From positions 29,320 through 93,319 of the forward strand of contig NZ_CANLEA010000021.1 in NCBI RefSeq assembly GCF_947489565.1: DNA of 64,000 nt, given 5' to 3'. Origin of the DNA: an uncultured Kordia sp. Its GTDB lineage: Bacteria > Bacteroidota > Bacteroidia > Flavobacteriales > Flavobacteriaceae. Below are positions 9,554 through 63,762 of the stretch, one piece after another. The notes below the pieces were generated by a model. It did not search any database, had not been told where the DNA came from, and saw only the letters and a program-made list of their open reading frames with translations. Both the position numbers and the translations under genes were made by a program. Every line of letters starts with the position of its first letter. Position 1 is the stretch's first letter.

Positions 9554-9710
9554 TTTTTAAAATAAGAGACCATCTGAAAAGTTTTTAAAACGTCATTCTA
9601 AACTTGGTTCAGCACCTAACTCAACTGGTTTTTCAATTGTACTGAGAAACCGAATCATATTCGACTTGACGAAGATTTGACTTTTATGACAATCTCTTAT
9701 TTTTTTAAAA
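9554..9710. repeat. MITE-like intergenic element, copy A
   Basis: A roughly 155-bp segment bounded by an imperfect inverted repeat (TTTTTAAAATAAGAGA on the left, TCTCTTATTTTTTTAAAA on the right). It contains the motifs CGTCATTCTAAACTTGG and CGACTTGACGAAG, shared with the elements at 48883-49026 and 55574-55715. It lies in the 600-base gap between the repeat-protein gene and the DUF2141 gene; nothing else was seen there. Confidence 0.6.
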
Positions 9711-48882: not shown

Positions 48883-49026
48883 AATAAAAAAACCGTCTAA
48901 AAAGGCTTAAAAACATGTCATTCTGAACTTGATTCAGAATCTCATCATATTGAATTTCAATGATAATGGTAAACCGAATCAAGTTCGGTTTGACGAAGTT
49001 TTGATTTTTTAAACAGTCTCTTTTTG
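48883..49026. repeat. MITE-like intergenic element, copy B
   Basis: A 144-base segment just past the mutB stop. It contains GTCATTCTGAACTTGATTCA, TCTCATCATA, and CGAATCAAGTTCGGTTTGAC, and has imperfect inverted ends (AAACCGTCT... and ...AGTCTCTTTTT). Shared with 9554-9710 and 55574-55715. Confidence 0.7.
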
Positions 49027-50709: not shown

Positions 50710-51213
50710 ATGAAAAAAATACTTTTGATTACCGTTTTTATGTTAAGTTTCAGTGGACTTTCTGCCCAAAATATGGACAATACCAAACTTGGAGCATTGT
50801 TAACGAAAAACTCAGATACCATTCAAGGACAAGAAGGAAATTGGCGTTTTGCTATTAATGATCGACTTTTTATTTGTTTGACAGACGAAAAAAACAATCG
50901 CATGCGTATTATTTCTCCGATCACAGAAGTTTCTACCGTTGATGAAACCATCTTGAAAAATTGCTTAACCGCAAACTTTCATACTGCCTTAGACGTGAAG
51001 TATGCCATTTCTGATGATATTCTTTGGTCTGTGTTCATTCATCCATTAAAAGAACTTTCAGACGCACAAGTTATTGATGCCGTCTCGCAAGTTTATAATG
51101 CCAATTACACATTCGGAACGATTTACTCAAGTACCAATTTATCGTTTCCGGGCGCACTTGGACAAGAAAAAGATAAACCAAAAGAACAAAAACTTAAAAA
51201 ACGAAAAATATAA
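50710..51213 (+). CDS. Hypothetical secreted protein
   Basis: A 167-residue protein with a signal peptide (MKKILLITVFML to about residue 19, ending SAQ). The mature part reads as alternating helices and strands similar to small chaperone-like folds and ends in a Lys-rich tail. No family is recognised. It is 3 bases upstream of the AhpD-like gene and probably cotranscribed. Confidence 0.65.
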   Translation: MKKILLITVFMLSFSGLSAQNMDNTKLGALLTKNSDTIQGQEGNWRFAINDRLFICLTDEKNNRMRIISPITEVSTVDETILKNCLTANFHTALDVKYAISDDILWSVFIHPLKELSDAQVIDAVSQVYNANYTFGTIYSSTNLSFPGALGQEKDKPKEQKLKKRKI

Positions 51214-51216
51214 TTC

Positions 51217-51822
51217 ATGAGCTGGATACACATTATTCCATTTGATAAAGCTACTGGAAAACTCAAATCGATTTACAACAAAATTAAAGGTCCAAACAAT
51301 CAAATTGATAATGTTTTGGGCATTCATAGTTTGCGTCCGCATACACTCACAGGACATGTAAGTTTGTATAAAAATACGCTGCATCATGCAAGCAATACAT
51401 TTCCTAATTGGTTTTTAGAATTATTAGGTACGTATACAAGTTTTATTAATAAATGTGACTATTGCTACGAACATCATTTTGCAGGAATGAAACGTTTTTT
51501 AAACGACGACGTCAAAGCTGCATCCATCAAAGAACATATTGAAAACGATTCTTTAGCCAGTATTTTATCTGAAAAAGAAATGATTTTAGTGAATTATGCC
51601 CATAAATTGACCTTCGCTGCCGCAGATTTAACACGTGCAGATATTGATGAAATTCGTAGTTTCGGTTATGATGATGGTGAAATTTTAGAAGTCAATCAAG
51701 TTGTAGCTTATTTTAATTACGCCAACCGTACAGTTTTAGGTTTGGGGGTAAATACGGCTGGCGAAATTTTAGGTTTATCACCTAGTAATAAAGATGACGA
51801 ATCTTCTTGGGAACATCATTAG
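51217..51822 (+). CDS. Peroxidase-related AhpD-like protein
   Basis: A 201-residue carboxymuconolactone-decarboxylase/AhpD-type protein. The redox CxxC is in NKCDYCYEHH (about residues 74-83), followed by a conserved His and the LVNYAHKLT helix near 128. Members called 'peroxidase-related' have this form. They act as disulfide-dependent alkylhydroperoxidases, although the substrate is not known. It is coupled to the secreted protein gene upstream. Confidence 0.88.
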   Translation: MSWIHIIPFDKATGKLKSIYNKIKGPNNQIDNVLGIHSLRPHTLTGHVSLYKNTLHHASNTFPNWFLELLGTYTSFINKCDYCYEHHFAGMKRFLNDDVKAASIKEHIENDSLASILSEKEMILVNYAHKLTFAAADLTRADIDEIRSFGYDDGEILEVNQVVAYFNYANRTVLGLGVNTAGEILGLSPSNKDDESSWEHH

Positions 51823-51849: not shown

Positions 51850-52293
51850 TTACTTTCTCTCAATTTTAAAGAAAAGTTGATAGTATTTAGGGACGAGTAA
51901 AAGGATTAGAAACACAATATCCAGAACCGTTTGAATGGCTGGTATTAGGTATGGATTCATTCCTTCTTCAACAATAGAAGGCGGTCCAACGATGGTTGTC
52001 GTTGTAAAATTTCCGATATGATCTACAATAGAAATTGCCATATACACTACAGTAGCAACCCAAGTAAACAAACCGCGCCATTTTATAAGTCCAACAATAA
52101 GAGGCACTGCAAAAACTGCCGCAAATATATCCAAATAAGCAGGATACATCCATGCTTTTGATTCAACATCCTCATTGATATCATTAATTAATACAAGAGC
52201 AATGAACCTAGATATTTGTAGTAGAATCCAAATAATTAATCCGATAAAAAATACTTTTTCATCACGTTTGAACTCTTTAAATTTAGTGGCCAT
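51850..52293 (-). CDS. Small four-span membrane protein
   Basis: A 147-residue protein with four hydrophobic segments near 15-35, 45-65, 70-90 and 115-135. It lacks recognised motifs. The ATG at 52293 (MATKFKEFK) is chosen over an upstream Met. It is the last of a minus-strand group led by an AraC regulator gene. Confidence 0.65.
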   Translation of the reverse strand: MATKFKEFKRDEKVFFIGLIIWILLQISRFIALVLINDINEDVESKAWMYPAYLDIFAAVFAVPLIVGLIKWRGLFTWVATVVYMAISIVDHIGNFTTTTIVGPPSIVEEGMNPYLIPAIQTVLDIVFLILLLVPKYYQLFFKIERK

Positions 52294-52326
52294 ATTTTTA
52301 TATAAAATCAAATATTTATAATGATA

Positions 52327-52893
52327 TTAATTTAGCGTAATGCTAAAAGCTGCCCCTGGACTTACATCAAAACCTTCTCCTATTTCTACTACAATTACCG
52401 TTTCAGAATCGATTCGTAAGTTGACAGCGTTTGTACTGCTTGAAAAACCTGAAATGTTGTGTGGTTGTGAAAACGTAAAATAGTATCGATCAAATTTACC
52501 TGCTGGAAAAACACCAAATACATCTGCAATATTTGACCAAAATGGATCGTCAATTGCCGCGATAAGTGCATATTCTATAGTATTACTTGTAAAGTTTATA
52601 TTGTACAATCCGCTTATATCGCCTGCAGGAGTTCCATTTTGAGCTAATGCCGTTGCAAATTCTGTGGTATCATTTGAAAGTGTTGCAAATTCGTCATACG
52701 CATCATCAGCTTGTCCAAATAAACTTGGGTAGGTATTTTCGTTTTCACCTGGATCTTGTAATGTATTCCTCAACGTAATATTCACACCTTCGCTTAATGG
52801 TGGTAATTGTGTAGTATTATCATCATCACTATCACAAGATAATAATGTGAGACTACTTATAATGGCAAGGAATGTTATTTTGATATTTTTCAT
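52327..52893 (-). CDS. Hypothetical lipoprotein of the AraC-regulated group
   Basis: A 188-residue protein with a lipoprotein signal (TLLSC, Cys near residue 20), then an Asp-rich linker and a beta-rich domain. GVNITLRNTLQDPGEN and FATALAQNGTPAGDISGLY recall spondin-like bacterial domains, but weakly. The start at 52893 gives a proper signal peptide; the longer frame adds 26 polar residues. It lies between a membrane protein and SnoaL-like genes. Confidence 0.65.
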   Translation of the reverse strand: MKNIKITFLAIISSLTLLSCDSDDDNTTQLPPLSEGVNITLRNTLQDPGENENTYPSLFGQADDAYDEFATLSNDTTEFATALAQNGTPAGDISGLYNINFTSNTIEYALIAAIDDPFWSNIADVFGVFPAGKFDRYYFTFSQPHNISGFSSSTNAVNLRIDSETVIVVEIGEGFDVSPGAAFSITLN

Positions 52894-52927
52894 GTTTCTT
52901 ATATTTCTTATGTTTTTATTCGTAGGT

Positions 52928-53485
52928 TTATTTATCATGATACACTTTAGAAACCTCATAACTATCTTCAAACCAATTCCATAGTATTACTTTCCCATCT
53001 TTAACTTTTACTCGTAAAGCGTATGTAAATTCTTTTGTTTCTTTATTTGAATTGGTTAATAAACCTATCATTTGTCCAAAATAAGCTGCCGTATCTCCAT
53101 TAGCGATTGCATCTGTTGGTTGCCATTTTTTGGTGATGAAGTTTTTGCCAAAAACAGGAAAAAAATCTTCCAATATTGCTTTCTTTCCATTCCAAGGTCC
53201 AATCCATGGTAAACTAGAATCTCCAGCATTTTGCCACACCATATCTTCATGCATTAAATTCTTCATTGCTTCCATATCGCCTTTTCCCATTGCGCCCATA
53301 AATGCATTTGCGATTTTTAGTGTTTCTTCTCCTTGTAATTCCATATCGCTTTTTGTTATAGGTGAAACTGTTTTTTCTGTTTTAGCACTTTCAGTAGCTT
53401 TGCTTGTTTCAATACATCCAATAAAAGTGCATAAAAACACAACGGCTAGTACGCCAAAAACGGCATTTCTCTTTATCGTATTCAT
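52928..53485 (-). CDS. SnoaL/NTF2-like lipoprotein
   Basis: A 185-residue protein with a lipoprotein signal (CTFIGC, Cys near residue 24) and an NTF2-like fold. The segment ANAFMGAMGKGDMEAMKNLMHEDMVWQNAG near 61-90 is typical of SnoaL-type proteins, as is the late KVKDGKVILWNWFEDS. This fold binds small hydrophobic molecules or acts as an isomerase or cyclase. It is 25 bases downstream of another NTF2-like gene. Confidence 0.8.
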   Translation of the reverse strand: MNTIKRNAVFGVLAVVFLCTFIGCIETSKATESAKTEKTVSPITKSDMELQGEETLKIANAFMGAMGKGDMEAMKNLMHEDMVWQNAGDSSLPWIGPWNGKKAILEDFFPVFGKNFITKKWQPTDAIANGDTAAYFGQMIGLLTNSNKETKEFTYALRVKVKDGKVILWNWFEDSYEVSKVYHDK

Positions 53486-53510
53486 TTCGTAAAAAATTAG
53501 TTGTTAGTGA

Positions 53511-53915
53511 TTATTGTAGTTGTTTCATGGCTGTTCCCCAGTCTTCCAAATGATATACTTCCACATCTTTTCCATCTATTATCGTATGGATGTCAATAGT
53601 CATAATGCTGAATGATTTTGTTCCATCAGTTGGTAATCCCATAAAATCGCCGTTAGGAGTTCCTGTTACTAGACTTCTTACAGTGTATCTGTTGCCTTCA
53701 TTAAGGATTTCTTGAGGCATCCATTTCAGGTCTGGAATTAGTTTCCAAAAGAAGCCTAATTGTCCAATAAGTTCTTCTTTAGATTTGTTTTGTACGGAAC
53801 CTTTAGAGACAAAGTTATCTGCCAAAATATCGCTTAATACAACAGCTGGAGTTGTCTCAGTGTTTACCGTAAGTGCTTTTTCATAAAATGCATTTATTAC
53901 TTCTTTGTTTGTCAT
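53511..53915 (-). CDS. SnoaL/NTF2-like protein, ester-cyclase type
   Basis: A 134-residue cytoplasmic NTF2-like protein of the SnoaL ester-cyclase type. Telling segments are VSKGSVQNKSKEELIGQLGFFW near 53-74, PDLKWMPQEILNEGNRY near 77-93 and the C-terminal VEVYHLEDW. It pairs with the lipoprotein of the same fold. The upstream AraC gene is on the same strand and may control the pair. Confidence 0.82.
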   Translation of the reverse strand: MTNKEVINAFYEKALTVNTETTPAVVLSDILADNFVSKGSVQNKSKEELIGQLGFFWKLIPDLKWMPQEILNEGNRYTVRSLVTGTPNGDFMGLPTDGTKSFSIMTIDIHTIIDGKDVEVYHLEDWGTAMKQLQ

Positions 53916-54159
53916 GTTTATATCTTTAATTGATTAACACCACAAATGTAAAATCGCAAAATATTTTGCTCATGGTAAGAAATAATCTAAATACTGTAAA
54001 AAAGGGAAAATATAATTATGCAGATATTCTCTAAGGCATTTACCTCTTTGTATTTATCATACAAATTTCACTGTAAATAATACAAAAAAGAATCAAAAAG
54101 CGAGTTTCCAATTCATTTTAACCACTAAACACACAGGCAAAAACTGTAAAAAAAGGAAT

Positions 54160-55032
54160 TCACGTGTGCTTTTCCCTAAACTGATTCGGAGAAAGCGACG
54201 TATTTTTTTTGAAATACTTAAAGAAGTTGGTTGGATCGTCAAATCCTGCTTCATAGGCAATTTCGCCAATAGATAATTCAGTATTCACCAGAAGACGTTT
54301 GATTTGGGTAATAACAATATCGTCAATTAAAGATTTTGCCGATTTTTCAATCGTAGCTTTTACAATATTATTCAATGTTTTTGGTGTAATTGACATTTGT
54401 TCTGCATAGTGCAATGCTGTTCTGCTTTCAAACCATTGCGCTTCAATTAAACTTTGAAACTTTAGAAATTGATTCAAATATTTTGTGTTAGTATACACTT
54501 TTTTATCTTTTACTTTTTCACGATATATTTTTGATAATAAGATATGTAACAAGCTTCTTTTTACACTAGAAGTATACAAGTCTTTTTCAACGTTCATCTC
54601 GTTATTTAACTGCTCTAAAATAATTTCTATCTCTAAAAAAGTAGAAGCATTTACTTCAATTTTTGGAGATTCAATTAGTTCATTAAATAATTGAAGTGCT
54701 TTGAGTCCTTCATTTTTACCAATATGTTTTATGATGAAATCATCGGTAAAAGCCAGTAAAGTTCCATCGGCTCCGCTATCTGTAAATTTGTGTATTACAC
54801 CTTTTCTTAAAGAAAAAATTGTTCCTTTTTTATAGGAATACGTTTTGTAATTTATCGTGTGTGTTCCTTCTCCTGCTGTAATGACAAACAACACATAAAA
54901 AGAGAGTTTATGATTTTCCGTTGGTTTATGATCTTTGGGTGATTTCTTAAAAATTTCACGAAGAGGAACTATATCAAAAAAAGATTTTGGGTTGGATGAA
55001 TTTTGATACGCTATGGTTGGTGTCTTTTTAAT
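54160..55032 (-). CDS. AraC family regulator with no ordinary start codon for the full frame
   Basis: An AraC-type regulator with an N-terminal cupin domain and C-terminal double helix-turn-helix (last 100 residues, with GEIAYEAGFDDPTNFFKYFKKNT). The first usual start (GTG at 54894) would remove about 46 residues. Upstream of it the same frame reads on with SSNPKSFFDIVPLREIF and NHKLSFYVLF, which is plainly protein and of AraC type. This goes back to a TAA at 55045-55047. Only ATT codons could start it there: ATT at 55030-55032 gives 290 residues beginning MKKTPTIAYQ. Either ATT is the start, or the ATG was lost. It probably controls the SnoaL-like group. Confidence 0.75.
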   Translation of the reverse strand: MKKTPTIAYQNSSNPKSFFDIVPLREIFKKSPKDHKPTENHKLSFYVLFVITAGEGTHTINYKTYSYKKGTIFSLRKGVIHKFTDSGADGTLLAFTDDFIIKHIGKNEGLKALQLFNELIESPKIEVNASTFLEIEIILEQLNNEMNVEKDLYTSSVKRSLLHILLSKIYREKVKDKKVYTNTKYLNQFLKFQSLIEAQWFESRTALHYAEQMSITPKTLNNIVKATIEKSAKSLIDDIVITQIKRLLVNTELSIGEIAYEAGFDDPTNFFKYFKKNTSLSPNQFREKHT

Positions 55033-55331: not shown

Positions 55332-55565
55332 ATGAAAAAATTAGAAAGTTTAAAAAACGGAAAATTCAAAGCAAAAGAATTAAAAAATGCAGGAAGTATT
55401 GTAGGAGCAACTGATTTATCAGATGGCGCTTCTTCGTCATTTAGAACAAGTAGAACATTTTTAACAAACTGTCCGCCACATCCAGCAATGTTAGATCATC
55501 ACAGTGATATTAAATTTGATCATAGTCATGGTCCAATTGACGATGTAAACAATTCTACCTTATAA
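55332..55565 (+). CDS. gwsA: Grasp-with-spasm RiPP precursor peptide
   Basis: A 77-residue peptide. The leader (MKKLESLKNGKF, KELKNAGSIVGA) has the form of grasp-with-spasm precursors. The core is rich in Ser and Thr at its front (about 28-45) and in Asp and His at its end (LDHHSD, FDHSHGPIDD), with one Cys. In this family an ATP-grasp enzyme is thought to make ester or amide links between Ser/Thr/Lys and Asp/Glu side chains. Both maturase genes follow. A MITE-like element separates it from them. Confidence 0.85.
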   Translation: MKKLESLKNGKFKAKELKNAGSIVGATDLSDGASSSFRTSRTFLTNCPPHPAMLDHHSDIKFDHSHGPIDDVNNSTL

Positions 55566-55573
55566 TATAAGGA

Positions 55574-55715
55574 ACTAGAAGAGGTTGTCTGAAAAGGTAA
55601 AATTTCGTTGAACTGAACGCGATTCAGTTTCTCATCACAATTAATAAATCGGTCTAATGAGATGTTGGATCAAGTTCAGAAAGACGCTATCAAAACCACT
55701 TAGACAACTTCTTTT
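55574..55715. repeat. MITE-like intergenic element, copy C
   Basis: It has terminal inverted ends (AGAAGAGGTTGTCT at the left and AGACAACTTCTTTT at the right, one mismatch) and shares GATTCAG, TCTCATCA and GATCAAGTTC with copy B. It sits between the precursor and the ATP-grasp gene and spans the false upstream start of the latter. Confidence 0.75.
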
Positions 55716-55731
55716 ATACCTTTTTCTAGAT

Positions 55732-56691
55732 ATGATTTTAATTAAATCAAATGCAGACGATTATTCCACTACGCAAGTTGTAAAATGGTTGAAACAGTAT
55801 AACGCAGATGTTTTACGATTGAATGATACGACGTTTTTAAAAGACTTAAAGCTTCATAATAACAACGTTTCGTTTTCATATAATGATGCTACAATTGCAC
55901 TTTCTGAAGTTTCAAAATATTGGTATCGACGTGGAAGATGGGATACGTTTCAAAGAAAAAATCTGCACCAAATAACCGACAAAACGTTTCATAGGTATCT
56001 TAATTATTTTAATAAAGAAGCTGAACGCGATGTAGTACATACGATTGAAACTTTACTTGCAGAAAAATCACTAAATCGACATGAAACCTCAGCAAATATT
56101 AATAAACTAGCGGTTTTAGCAAGTTGTAAAACGCTAAAAATTATTACACCTGACACCTTAGTTACGAATTCAAAAACGGTTTTAAAAGATTTTGTTGTAC
56201 AACATGGAGAAGTCATCACCAAAGCTGTCAATAATCTAGACCCGAATATAAAAGGAGATGTTTTTGCAGATGTAATGACCAAAAAAATTACGTTGGAAAC
56301 CTTGGCAAAATTGCCAGAACGATTTAATGTAAGCTTGTTTCAGAATTTGGTGGCAAAGAAGTTTGAAATTCGGACATTCTTTTTCATTGACACTTTTTAT
56401 TCGATGGCCATTTTTTCACAGAATGACGATCAAACGAAAGTTGATTTTAGAAATTACAATATGAAAGCGCCCAATAGATGCGTTCCGTATCAATTGCCAA
56501 CTTTATTGGAAACTAAACTGAGGAAATTACTAGAAATCTATGAACTGAATTCCGCTTCGTTAGATATTATTTACACTACCGAAGACGAATATAGTTTTCT
56601 AGAAATCAACCCGATAGGACAATACGATATGACTTCTAAACCTTGTAATTACTTTTTAGATGAAGTGATTGCCAATTATTTATCATCATGA
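55732..56691 (+). CDS. gwsG: Grasp-with-spasm ATP-grasp peptide maturase
   Basis: A 319-residue ATP-grasp ligase of the MvdD/RimK-related group. The N-terminal part (STTQVVKWLKQ, LRLND) is the pre-ATP-grasp domain. The ATP-grasp core has the KKFEIRTFFF segment near 212-221 and SFLEINPIGQYD near 292-303, in which Glu and Asn bind magnesium. The start is the ATG at 55732 (MILIKSNAD); the longer frame begins inside a mobile-type repeat. The enzyme is expected to form side-chain ester or amide links in the precursor. Confidence 0.88.
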   Translation: MILIKSNADDYSTTQVVKWLKQYNADVLRLNDTTFLKDLKLHNNNVSFSYNDATIALSEVSKYWYRRGRWDTFQRKNLHQITDKTFHRYLNYFNKEAERDVVHTIETLLAEKSLNRHETSANINKLAVLASCKTLKIITPDTLVTNSKTVLKDFVVQHGEVITKAVNNLDPNIKGDVFADVMTKKITLETLAKLPERFNVSLFQNLVAKKFEIRTFFFIDTFYSMAIFSQNDDQTKVDFRNYNMKAPNRCVPYQLPTLLETKLRKLLEIYELNSASLDIIYTTEDEYSFLEINPIGQYDMTSKPCNYFLDEVIANYLSS

Positions 56692-56903
56692 AAGACGCAC
56701 AAATTATTGAAGCCTTACAACGGCAAATGCAGGAAACTCCTGAGTTATTTGAAGCGGTGTTTTTTCTATCAGAACTCAAAGGTCGTGGCAATCTTTTGGA
56801 ACACGCAGGACAAATTAAAGTGATTTCGTTGCCTACGTACCAAACCGATTATCATCCTGTAGACACCAAATATTATAAACCCATTTCAAGATGTTTTCAC
56901 TAG
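56688..56903 (+). CDS. Small protein encoded between the two maturases
   Basis: A 71-residue protein starting with MKDAQIIEALQRQMQETPELFEAVFFLSELKGRG. The first 45 residues are helical and acidic, the remainder has VISLPTYQTDYHPVD. It overlaps gwsG by 4 bases and gwsS by 13 bases, so it is translated with them. No known domain is recognised. It could be a leader-recognition or chaperone subunit, or simply an accessory factor of the maturation complex. Confidence 0.7.
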   Translation: MKDAQIIEALQRQMQETPELFEAVFFLSELKGRGNLLEHAGQIKVISLPTYQTDYHPVDTKYYKPISRCFH

Positions 56904-58009
56904 AACTCAAACAAAGTGATCAATATTTGCTTCTTTTTGCAGCGTGTTTGATCACGAAAGGACATAACAGAGCATTGCTTACCGACAGTCAACGCGGAAA
57001 ATTTGATTTGATTCCGAATGACATGTTGGACTTTATTGAAAATGCAAAACGCTATTCCATCAAAACTTTATTTAAAATTTATGGTGAGGAAAATAGTGAG
57101 ATTGTAGAAAGTTATGTGTCCTATATTTTGGAGAATGAGTATGGTTTTTTGGCCGATGAAAAGATTCGTCATAATTTCCCTGAGATTAAAATTGATTGGA
57201 AAAGTCCGTCCACAATTACCAACAGTATTATTGACATCAAAGATTTTGAACACACGAAAACCTATTACGAACGCATCATTTCTCAATTAAACGCCTTGCA
57301 ATGTGAAGCTTTACAAATTCGTTCGTACACTTCATTACACATAGAACAATTACAGTATTTGGCAACCTGCGTTCAGGAAACTTCGATTGAATATCTAGAA
57401 ATTTATGTAAAAGATCATGACGAATTACCTTTAGACAAACTGATCCGATTGTTACAAGAACATACCAAAATATCAAACCTTATTGTACATTCTGCTAGTA
57501 AAAATGATGAATATGACGTTATCAAAAAACTATCTTCCATTTATCACACTACGCAAGAATTGACAGATGAAACCTGTTGCGGTTTGGTGGAAAAGCAATA
57601 TTTCAATGCTGTAAAAGATCATTATATGGAAGCGCATTTTTACAACAGTTGCTTGAATAGAAAAATATCCGTGGACGCGAATGGAATATTGAAAAATTGT
57701 CCTTCGATGCAAACTTCCTATGGAAATGCGTTAGATACAAATTTGGTAGACATCATTAGTAATGAAGACTTTACATCTGCATGGAATTTAAAAAAGGATT
57801 TTGTATTGACTTGCCAAGAGTGTGAATTTCGCTATATCTGTACTGATTGTCGCGCCTATGTGGAAGATCCTGAAAATCGATATTCAAAACCTTTGAAATG
57901 TGGATACGATCCGCATACGAATGAATGGTCTTCTTGGGAAGAAAATCCTTTGAAACAAAAAGCTATAGAACACTACGAATTAAAAAATATAAAACGAATA
58001 CTCTCATAA
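56891..58009 (+). CDS. gwsS: Grasp-with-spasm SPASM-domain peptide maturase
   Basis: A 372-residue protein. The C-terminal part (about 250-345) has the SPASM-type Cys pattern: SCLNRK, NGILKNCPSM, CQECEFRYICTDCR and KCGYDP. The N-terminal 240 residues resemble a radical SAM barrel in outline but have no CxxxCxxC motif, so the [4Fe-4S] cluster that binds SAM cannot form in the usual way. SPASM clusters bind peptide substrates or auxiliary iron-sulfur clusters. It probably presents the precursor to the ATP-grasp enzyme. Confidence 0.88.
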   Translation: MFSLELKQSDQYLLLFAACLITKGHNRALLTDSQRGKFDLIPNDMLDFIENAKRYSIKTLFKIYGEENSEIVESYVSYILENEYGFLADEKIRHNFPEIKIDWKSPSTITNSIIDIKDFEHTKTYYERIISQLNALQCEALQIRSYTSLHIEQLQYLATCVQETSIEYLEIYVKDHDELPLDKLIRLLQEHTKISNLIVHSASKNDEYDVIKKLSSIYHTTQELTDETCCGLVEKQYFNAVKDHYMEAHFYNSCLNRKISVDANGILKNCPSMQTSYGNALDTNLVDIISNEDFTSAWNLKKDFVLTCQECEFRYICTDCRAYVEDPENRYSKPLKCGYDPHTNEWSSWEENPLKQKAIEHYELKNIKRILS

Positions 58010-58024
58010 AAAGAGCATTCGTTT
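57991..58024. terminator. Terminator overlapping the end of gwsS
   Basis: AAAACGAAT and ATTCGTTTT, with inner CTCT/AGAG pairs around an ATAAA loop, form a long stem; T-rich DNA follows. It covers the last codons of gwsS and may also serve the convergent enoyl-CoA hydratase gene. Confidence 0.8.
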
Positions 58025-58046
58025 TCGTTTTACTTTTGAGTATGTA

Positions 58047-60979: not shown

Positions 60980-62560
60980 ATGAAATTATTAAAATTTTCC
61001 GTTTTTTGTTTCTTATTTCATATAACAAACCTACATGCACAACATTCGGTAAATGTATCTAATATTGATGTTTTAGGTTTTGATAGTGAACTCTATGTAT
61101 CCATGTATCAAAAAGTTGGAGAAAATGCATATACCTATTCTGAATTGTATATTGATGACGATGACGACGGATTTTATAAAATAGCTATTGACAAAGAAGA
61201 TAAACATCAATATACGCTAGAAGATATTAAGAAAGAACATGAAAAAATTCTATTTGTGGCTGATATTGCTCCAACTCCTTTTAGTTCTTGGCAACAACAG
61301 GATTGGTTGCTACAATATGAAGAAAGTACTGCTGATGAGCCGCATCTTGTAAAATTTAAAGACCACGGATTTTCTACATTTGAAGAATTAGAAATTACAG
61401 ATACGGCTGCTACCAACAATTCAAATCCTTCTCAATGGGAAATTATGGATGGATATTGGCTTTTAAATATTATTGTTGATTTTGGAGATGGAAAACAAAT
61501 CGTTCTTTTGACTGAAGATGATAATATTTATTTTGCCTGTATTCCGTTAAAAGATGGTATGAAGGTTTTATCAGATGAAGCAGAAGTTTTGGATGTAATT
61601 CCTGTATCAAAAGATACATATTTTGTTGATTTTTATAACTCTATGAAAGGCTTTGAGATTAGCAATATCTATGCGATTGAAAAAAATGCTTCTCAAAAAT
61701 ATAGTGTGTATGATTATTTAAAGAAAGATTTGCTAAACGCCAGTTATGACACCATTCTATACAACGAATATTATCTCATTGGGAAAACAACTACTTCCTA
61801 TACACTTTACAATACATTGTTAGAAAAACTTAAGACTCCATTGATAAAAAAAGCGCATCTAAAAGATAATTACCTTGAAGTACTGGCTGAAAATGACGCT
61901 TATTATTATGATAATTTAGGCAATGTTTTTAGAGAAATGCCCGAAAGTCTTCCTATGGTTTTGTGCGGAACCGTAAATTCTATACAATACGAACTGATCA
62001 GAGATGAACATTCCAAGTCGCAACACGGCATAAAAATTACAGAAGGCGGCATGGCAAGTACTTTTGATGAAATAAAAGAATTCATCTTTACAGACATCAA
62101 CAAGCGACATGAAATCAGTTTTCTGGATAATTCTTCCAAGCAATATTGGGATGAAAATGATCAGTTTACGGGAGCTGTTTCTGGGTTTCCAAACTATATA
62201 AAAGTTCAAAAAGGAAAAAAGTATGGAATCCGCTCGTATTCGTATACAATGCAGGATGATATGTTTACAGCAGATACCATCAACAATCCTAATTCGTATA
62301 AGAAACAAATTATTCACAAAATCCCTGATTTAATTACGACGGTAGAAGAATTGCCTATAAAGTATGACGCTATTACAATTAGCAAACACGGCTTGATTCT
62401 TTTCTACAAAGACAACAAAGTGGGCATTTTTCCAAAACAGAAAAAACCAACGTATGAACTGCTTGAAAAAGTCACAAAATCATTCTACAAAATCATCAAA
62501 AACGGAAAATCGGGTTGGTTAGATATTACAACGATGGAAGAGTTTTTTTTTGATGACTAA
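60980..62560 (+). CDS. Secreted hypothetical protein, tandem paralogue 1
   Basis: A 526-residue protein with a signal peptide (to about residue 20, ending LHAQ). It is acidic and aromatic-rich and has WG-repeat-like stretches, such as KNGKSGWLDITTMEEF at the C-terminus and KKGKKYGIRSYS near 410. It shares its overall plan with the next gene; the last 130 bases are almost identical. Function is unknown; a beta-propeller-like exported protein is a fair guess. Confidence 0.75.
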   Translation: MKLLKFSVFCFLFHITNLHAQHSVNVSNIDVLGFDSELYVSMYQKVGENAYTYSELYIDDDDDGFYKIAIDKEDKHQYTLEDIKKEHEKILFVADIAPTPFSSWQQQDWLLQYEESTADEPHLVKFKDHGFSTFEELEITDTAATNNSNPSQWEIMDGYWLLNIIVDFGDGKQIVLLTEDDNIYFACIPLKDGMKVLSDEAEVLDVIPVSKDTYFVDFYNSMKGFEISNIYAIEKNASQKYSVYDYLKKDLLNASYDTILYNEYYLIGKTTTSYTLYNTLLEKLKTPLIKKAHLKDNYLEVLAENDAYYYDNLGNVFREMPESLPMVLCGTVNSIQYELIRDEHSKSQHGIKITEGGMASTFDEIKEFIFTDINKRHEISFLDNSSKQYWDENDQFTGAVSGFPNYIKVQKGKKYGIRSYSYTMQDDMFTADTINNPNSYKKQIIHKIPDLITTVEELPIKYDAITISKHGLILFYKDNKVGIFPKQKKPTYELLEKVTKSFYKIIKNGKSGWLDITTMEEFFFDD

Positions 62561-62580: not shown

Positions 62581-63762
62581 ATGAAACTTTTTATACAACT
62601 GTTGACAATTCTTGTTATAAGCTGCGTTAAAATGCAAGCACAGCATATCATTAAAGTTCCTAACATTCATTTGATAGCACACAATGAAAAAACTCTTATG
62701 ATGTATGAACAAGTTGGTTTGAATACATTCAAAGAAATAGACATGGAATACCGCAACTTGAATAACATTTCTAGAAGACTACATATTGACCGAGATGGCT
62801 TGACATATTCCCTAGAACAATTACAATCTCGATACACAACAGTTTTATTTGTAGGTCACTTAAGATCCAATGGTTTTGAAGATTTAAAAAATAAGCAATG
62901 GTTCGTAAATACGAAAATCATACAACCTCATGAACGCCATATTTTTAAATTTACAGATTCTAATTTTGTTACATATCAAGAATTTGAAACATCGATCACT
63001 AATGACATTCCTGATAAGTATGAAACTCCTTATAAGGTAATTCGCGCTTCCATGTTGGAACAGCAACCTACGATAGGATATTGGCGTATTATTGACCAAG
63101 TTTGGTATCAACCGATCATTCTAGATTTTGGCAATGAAAAGCAGATTATTTTATTAAATAATCATATTGATAGCGATTTTGTATTTATTCCACTTATGGA
63201 CGAGATAAAAATAATTTCAGAAGAAATTGATATCAAAAAAACTGTTGAAATTCAGAAACATTCACCTTCATTTAGTCCGTATGATTATTTTGATCATTTC
63301 AAATTTTCAAAACTTTATAAAAAAGCAATCACCAAGAACAATACATATCGCATTCTTGATCTTTTTGGGAATGATTTGTTAGAAAAAACTTTCGATCGTA
63401 TTGAGCATAACAACTACTATATTGTTGGTGAAAACGATGGTTCATATACAGTGTATGATCTTTTATTAAACGAATTAGAGTTTCCGAATATTCAAAAGTA
63501 TTATTTTAATGAATATGGATTGGAAGTACTAACTAAAGACGAAGCATACTATAGTATTGAAGGTTTTCGAGAAACAAAATATCCAATTAAAATTGGTGGA
63601 AAAACAAACGGAAACAACCCTATAATTAGTGTTTTTCCAAAACAGAAAAAACTAACATACGAACTGCTTGAAAAAGTCACAAAATCATTCTACAAAATCA
63701 TCAAAAACGGAAAATCGGGTTGGTTAGATATTACAACGATGGAAGAGTTTTTTTTTGATTGA
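62581..63762 (+). CDS. Secreted hypothetical protein, tandem paralogue 2
   Basis: A 393-residue protein with a signal peptide ending near MQAQ (residue 20). It aligns with the whole of paralogue 1 but lacks about 130 residues before its C-terminus, where GKTNGNNPIISVFPKQKK joins the shared end. The last 130 bases match paralogue 1 with three substitutions, while the rest has drifted widely. This points to gene conversion or to a deletion by recombination. It begins 20 bases after paralogue 1. Confidence 0.75.
   Translation: MKLFIQLLTILVISCVKMQAQHIIKVPNIHLIAHNEKTLMMYEQVGLNTFKEIDMEYRNLNNISRRLHIDRDGLTYSLEQLQSRYTTVLFVGHLRSNGFEDLKNKQWFVNTKIIQPHERHIFKFTDSNFVTYQEFETSITNDIPDKYETPYKVIRASMLEQQPTIGYWRIIDQVWYQPIILDFGNEKQIILLNNHIDSDFVFIPLMDEIKIISEEIDIKKTVEIQKHSPSFSPYDYFDHFKFSKLYKKAITKNNTYRILDLFGNDLLEKTFDRIEHNNYYIVGENDGSYTVYDLLLNELEFPNIQKYYFNEYGLEVLTKDEAYYSIEGFRETKYPIKIGGKTNGNNPIISVFPKQKKLTYELLEKVTKSFYKIIKNGKSGWLDITTMEEFFFD

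Follow-up and report, generated by a model that had tools for sequence, protein, structure and literature searches.

The locus described here lies in a 64,000-nucleotide stretch of contig NZ_CANLEA010000021.1 from an uncultured Kordia sp., referred to below as the window. Four open reading frames, gwsA, gwsG, gwsB and gwsS, occupy positions 55332-58009, all on the forward strand, and two hairpins accompany them:

55332..55565, forward strand: gwsA, precursor peptide of 77 aa; leader 1-26 ending in GA, core 27-77, cleavage site predicted
55569..55722, forward strand: long, imperfect hairpin in the gwsA-gwsG gap, recognised by folding energy, repeat matches and hairpins in orthologues
55732..56691, forward strand: gwsG, ATP-grasp graspetide ligase of 319 aa, recognised by TIGR04192
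56688..56903, forward strand: gwsB, small gene of 71 aa, probable partner subunit, judged from 13 family members and its conserved place
56891..58009, forward strand: gwsS, 372 aa; N-terminus resembling an RRE, then a radical-SAM-type barrel that is shortened and has no CX3CX2C, then a SPASM domain
57991..58025, strand unassigned: terminator-like hairpin with a 15-pair stem, closing the cluster between convergent genes

The gwsG and gwsS genes are spaced 200 bases apart, with gwsB between them; gwsB shares 4 bases with gwsG and 13 with gwsS. The start of GwsG was set at 55732; the ORF list gives 344 aa from an ATG further upstream (55657), which neither the family model nor the orthologues use. 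All four genes had been recognised in the first-pass annotation as a 77-residue precursor, an ATP-grasp ligase, a small overlapping gene and a SPASM protein on one strand, and that description held.

Family membership and probable inheritance of the cluster

The grasp-with-spasm system is defined by the NCBIfam models TIGR04192 and TIGR04193. GwsG scored 263.7 bits against the former (curated cut-off 230) and GwsS 357.1 bits against the latter (curated cut-off 175); since both defining models are passed, the family call stands, and 55332-58009 is, judged by its sequence, a grasp-with-spasm cluster, a class that is already known. This identity had been proposed before, to be given up if the models placed the two proteins in unrelated families, which they did not. 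The cluster shares with the known system a small gene between the ligase and SPASM protein genes and, upstream of the ligase, a short precursor gene whose core carries Ser/Thr and Asp/Glu. It departs from the known system in GwsA, which belongs to its own family of 10 known members, and whose core has four donors spaced three residues apart and acceptors at 55, 59, 63 and 70. Neither GwsA nor GwsB had a match over cut-off in NCBIfam or Pfam; their families have 10 and 13 members, respectively, the window's own counted in both. The gene order is repeated in two other Kordia genomes.

GwsG is homologous along its entire length to the microviridin-type ligases MvdC, MvdD, MdnB and CdnC, including those with solved structures, and its relatives in the PDB are AMdnB, CdnC and two entries named 'ATP grasp ligase' (E 6e-19 to 6e-14). 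A microviridin-type cluster was nevertheless ruled out, as GwsG scores 117.6 where the MvdC equivalog cut-off is 425, and 109.4 where that for MvdD is 475, far short of both. The residues R214, R240, D278, E291, N293, G296 and Q297 are among those invariant in 28/28 GwsG proteins, the window's included. Invariant residues of this kind in ATP-grasp enzymes bind metal, nucleotide or substrate.

The ligase and the SPASM protein are tightly paired. Across 395 genomes of the class, the window's included, 39 places pass the GwsG cut-off, and within 3 kb downstream of each there is a GwsS match, in 31 cases over the GwsS cut-off; likewise, each of the 35 places that pass the GwsS cut-off has a GwsG match upstream. 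In a genus-weighted set, GwsG lies upstream at 28 of 30 GwsS loci; it is downstream at L069 and missing from the stretch at L072. The system is frequent in the class, with the GwsS cut-off passed in 28/395 genomes and the GwsG cut-off in 29/395. In the window's genome, the TIGR04192 cut-off is passed at four ligase places, and the GwsA precursor occurs once. Because the precursor is present in 3/11 genomes of the genus and the neighbourhood downstream of the cluster matches that in two other Kordia genomes (tblastn), the cluster looks inherited. The shared downstream neighbourhood led us to reject a recent island; similarity on the upstream side was judged from listed N-termini.

On that side, two forward-strand genes of 167 and 201 aa at 50710-51822 have N-termini resembling those of genes 5' of the gws cluster at L083 and L063, and in the window a block at 51850-54894 separates the pair from the cluster. 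Neither gene has a Pfam match. The 201-aa gene contains CDYCYEHH, which we take to be a motif of AhpD-like proteins. Further downstream, tandem genes at 60980-62560 and 62581-63762 share a nearly identical C-terminal stretch and likewise have no Pfam match.

A single terminator had been described at the end of the cluster. A 15-pair hairpin does lie at 57991-58025, but it was scored on the reverse strand, and the terminator scan found 2 against a shuffle mean of 1.9, which is not above shuffled sequence. The earlier statement that no export gene adjoins the cluster is correct. Four Peptidase_C39 places lie elsewhere in the genome, two of them within ORFs of 739 and 742 aa, which we read as peptidase-containing ABC transporters, one beside an HlyD-like gene.

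The precursor, its predicted rings and the intergenic hairpin

A search of 5.8 billion proteins yielded the 10-member GwsA family. In the alignment, the leader end GA is invariant, columns 36, 39, 42 and 45 are Ser/Thr in 10/10 members, and columns 55, 59, 63 and 70 are Asp/Glu in 10/10. Among these, S36, T39, T45, D55, D59 and D63 are invariant, as is C47, and positions 42 and 70 are conserved in class (position 70 being D or E). Between the donor and acceptor blocks, C47, P48, P49, H50 and M53 do not vary. The spacing of donors every three residues and of acceptors mostly every four, with a CPPH turn between them, suggests a hairpin carrying up to four ester rungs, and up to four Ser/Thr-to-Asp ester rings are predicted, for a mass change of up to -72 Da (-72.04 Da for four waters). 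For core 27-77 before modification, the calculated monoisotopic mass is 5589.57. The four-by-four pairing is only a prediction, because Ser/Thr also fills columns 35 and 58 in 10/10 members and T27 and D31 are invariant.

The Ser/Thr-then-Asp character ascribed to the core by the first-pass annotation is a conserved feature of the family. The His residues of the two motifs to which it also drew attention, LDHHSD and FDHSHGPIDD, are less conserved: His 56, 57 and 64 are kept in 7/10 members and His66 in 2/10, and the invariant His50 lies outside both motifs. A His-rich metal-binding peptide was rejected, given that His 56, 57, 64 and 66 vary. The GwsA leader is without Pro, in contrast to other graspetide branches, for which PMC8939145 gives a Pro-containing leader motif.

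Precursors of a different design occur at paralogous gws loci. One such locus in the same genome, L042, has four precursors, one of them with alternating TATATATA and EAEAEAEA stretches, which would fit facing donor and acceptor strands of another period. Strictly alternating Thr and Glu of this kind is found in precursors at L042, L049 and L050, and is suggestive of a two-residue ester ladder. Precursors without Cys occur at L042, L044, L055, L058, L059, L061, L066 and L067.

The hairpin between gwsA and gwsG, which was absent from the first-pass annotation, has a folding energy of -50.5 kcal/mol (z -5.4). Part of it matches a dispersed repeat found at six other places in the genome at E <= 0.01, three of approximately 105-140 bases and three of approximately 30. 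Repeat-type copies of the hairpin, about 70-72% identical, also lie at 48917-49022 and 9581-9698 of the window. The gwsA-gwsG gap is about 166 bases long, compared with 60-65 in two orthologues, both of which have a shorter terminator-like hairpin at the same spot; such hairpins were present in 5/14 scored gaps in all. We consider the hairpin a likely transcript attenuator, and because hairpins follow the precursor gene both in the window and in the orthologues, precursor message may be kept above enzyme message.

GwsS, its missing CX3CX2C motif and the small gene

The structural model of GwsS (pLDDT 91.8) starts with an RRE-like region of strands and three helices, followed by a radical-SAM-type barrel of reduced length and a SPASM domain. 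The barrel is a partial beta/alpha barrel as in radical SAM enzymes, and its first strand (111-116) is followed directly by a helix (119-135). The fold matches of the model are TigE, PqqE, SuiB and CteB, peptide-maturing proteins that combine RRE, radical SAM and SPASM domains, with which GwsS shares domain order, fold and seven SPASM cysteines. GwsS differs from them in having no CX3CX2C, no loop for the motif and a shorter barrel, and Foldseek aligns it to SuiB and CteB with low TM-scores (0.20-0.27, rmsd 10-15). For residues 1-100, the strand-helix order fits an RRE, a leader-binding domain built of three strands and three helices; few structural rows cover this region, with only TigE and CteB reaching into it. 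The RRE assignment rests mainly on strand-helix order, since the TM-scores are low and coverage is sparse, and Pfam found no PqqD-type domain in GwsS by sequence.

Radical SAM enzymes need CX3CX2C to bind the [4Fe-4S] cluster that holds SAM. This motif is missing from the window's GwsS, from all of a set of 30 GwsS proteins, from all 120 of the best 120 of 2398 GwsS matches (a set overlapping the 30) and from all of a further set of 20. As a control, the one further SPASM protein found in the window's genome carries it. For lack of the motif, a classical radical SAM function of GwsS was rejected, and the earlier description of a SPASM-domain protein, borne out by TIGR04193 and by the seven SPASM cysteines, needs correction in this respect.

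The SPASM cysteines themselves are C254-X10-G265-X4-C270, C308-X2-C311-X5-C317-X2-C320 and C337, and they are kept in 25-29 of the 30 GwsS proteins. The published SPASM motif, as given in PMC6231123, is CX9-15GX4C-gap-CX2CX5CX3C-gap-C, and GwsS differs from it in having CX2CX5CX2C. Three further cysteines are also conserved, C19 (28/30), C138 (26/30) and C230 (25/30), and these could be ligands of an atypical cluster. The relatives at L068, L069, L070, L071 and L072 are short of some SPASM cysteines; at L072, which has no ligase in its stretch, most are gone. Among named relatives of GwsS in the genome collection, the nearest is from Kordia aestuariivivens YSTF-M3 (79% identical).

Between gwsG and gwsS, at least 45 of 47 loci have a small ORF. 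A C-terminal P[IV][ST][KR] occurs in 28/47 of these ORFs, and an LP-hydrophobic stretch near the start in 31/47, which the window's GwsB does not have. The single-chain model of GwsB is poor (pLDDT 64.7). In PMC8939145, genes at this place are named the LPL family, with unrelated small genes there in other loci, and a PqqD-like role is proposed for the LPL small genes; in our model, the RRE-like domain lies inside GwsS.

Possible roles of GwsS

The reading we favor, at a probability of roughly one half, is that GwsG closes up to four rings and that GwsS is a leader-binding partner with no radical role. The sequence of GwsS is without the cysteine motif needed by the radical enzymes of its fold, so it is likely a peptide-presenting helper; together with family membership, conserved residues, fold and pairing, this makes presentation of the peptide to GwsG its most likely function. 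The RRE-like N-terminal domain of GwsS would bind the Lys-rich leader of GwsA, and two predicted SPASM iron-sulphur clusters may hold the fold together or sense redox state, with GwsB helping to join GwsS and GwsG. GwsG would phosphorylate Asp55, 59, 63 and 70 for attack by Thr45, 42 and 39 and Ser36, most simply giving a nested hairpin of rings around the invariant CPPH turn. Cleavage after Gly25-Ala26 and export of the core might then fall to a C39-type transporter whose gene lies elsewhere, although the leader ends in GA and not GG. The intergenic hairpin would keep enzyme message below precursor message.

There is perhaps a quarter's weight of likelihood in the alternative that GwsS is a tailoring enzyme, whose SPASM clusters carry out redox chemistry that is atypical or needs no SAM, with Cys47 as one possible target, alongside or after the esters made by GwsG. 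The conservation of the SPASM cysteines and of C19, C138 and C230 agrees with such a role, as does the invariance of Cys47 in the GwsA family, and thioether bonds made by the SPASM protein are proposed in PMC8939145. Set against it are the missing CX3CX2C in all three sets and the 5/30 relatives that are without some SPASM cysteines, most of them still beside a ligase; the Cys-free precursors at several gws loci also speak against a radical reaction on Cys as a general rule. It is rather unlikely that GwsG modifies GwsA alone while GwsS acts elsewhere, for instance as a redox-sensing regulator or as an adaptor in immunity or export. Other graspetide ligases function free of partners according to PMC13097080, and GwsG resembles such ligases over its whole length; however, the pairing (39/39 and 35/35) and the overlapping genes speak for joint action, and the SPASM/RRE architecture of GwsS is that of peptide maturases. 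Very improbable is a silent or decaying cluster in which the repeat-type hairpin has shut off enzyme expression. The long gap and the partial identity of the hairpin with a dispersed repeat would suit it, but the four frames are open, catalytic-type residues are kept, and the hairpin looks normal because both orthologues have a terminator-like hairpin there.

We infer that the window's system corresponds to graspetide 'group 14' of PMC13097080 and 'branch 5' of PMC8939145, group 14 being taken as the grasp-with-spasm system because it has a SPASM protein. In these papers, group 14 frequently co-occurs with NHLM-type transporters and its partner is cautiously termed SPASM-containing (PMC13097080), while a figure legend calls the SPASM partner a radical SAM enzyme (PMC8939145). 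A precedent for the partner-dependent ligase of our preferred reading is rosaritide (MirA/MirB/MirC), which, according to PMC13097080, needs the partner MirC, with its weakly RRE-like N-domain; both ligases are always accompanied by another protein. MirC is chaperone/isomerase-like, whereas GwsS is a SPASM protein with a predicted partner role. In the literature on graspetides and SPASM maturases, mostly open-access and at the level of titles, we found no characterised grasp-with-spasm product and no statement that the TIGR04193 family is without the radical cluster. The missing radical cluster in GwsS is the point meriting specialist attention.

More tentatively, and with slightly less conviction than for the locus itself, the entire TIGR04193 family may be pseudo-radical-SAM, a peptide maturase stripped of its SAM cluster and recruited as an iron-sulphur, RRE-bearing partner loading peptides onto an ATP-grasp ligase, which in the window would serve a four-rung ester ladder. 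The radical-SAM label in the legend of PMC8939145 steers chemists toward thioether or C-C bonds, and the sequences examined here are without the radical cluster motif. The missing motif raises the question of whether or not GwsS is required for ester formation by GwsG, and the GwsA family, through the eight donor and acceptor residues named above and a defined mass shift, gives a handle on it.
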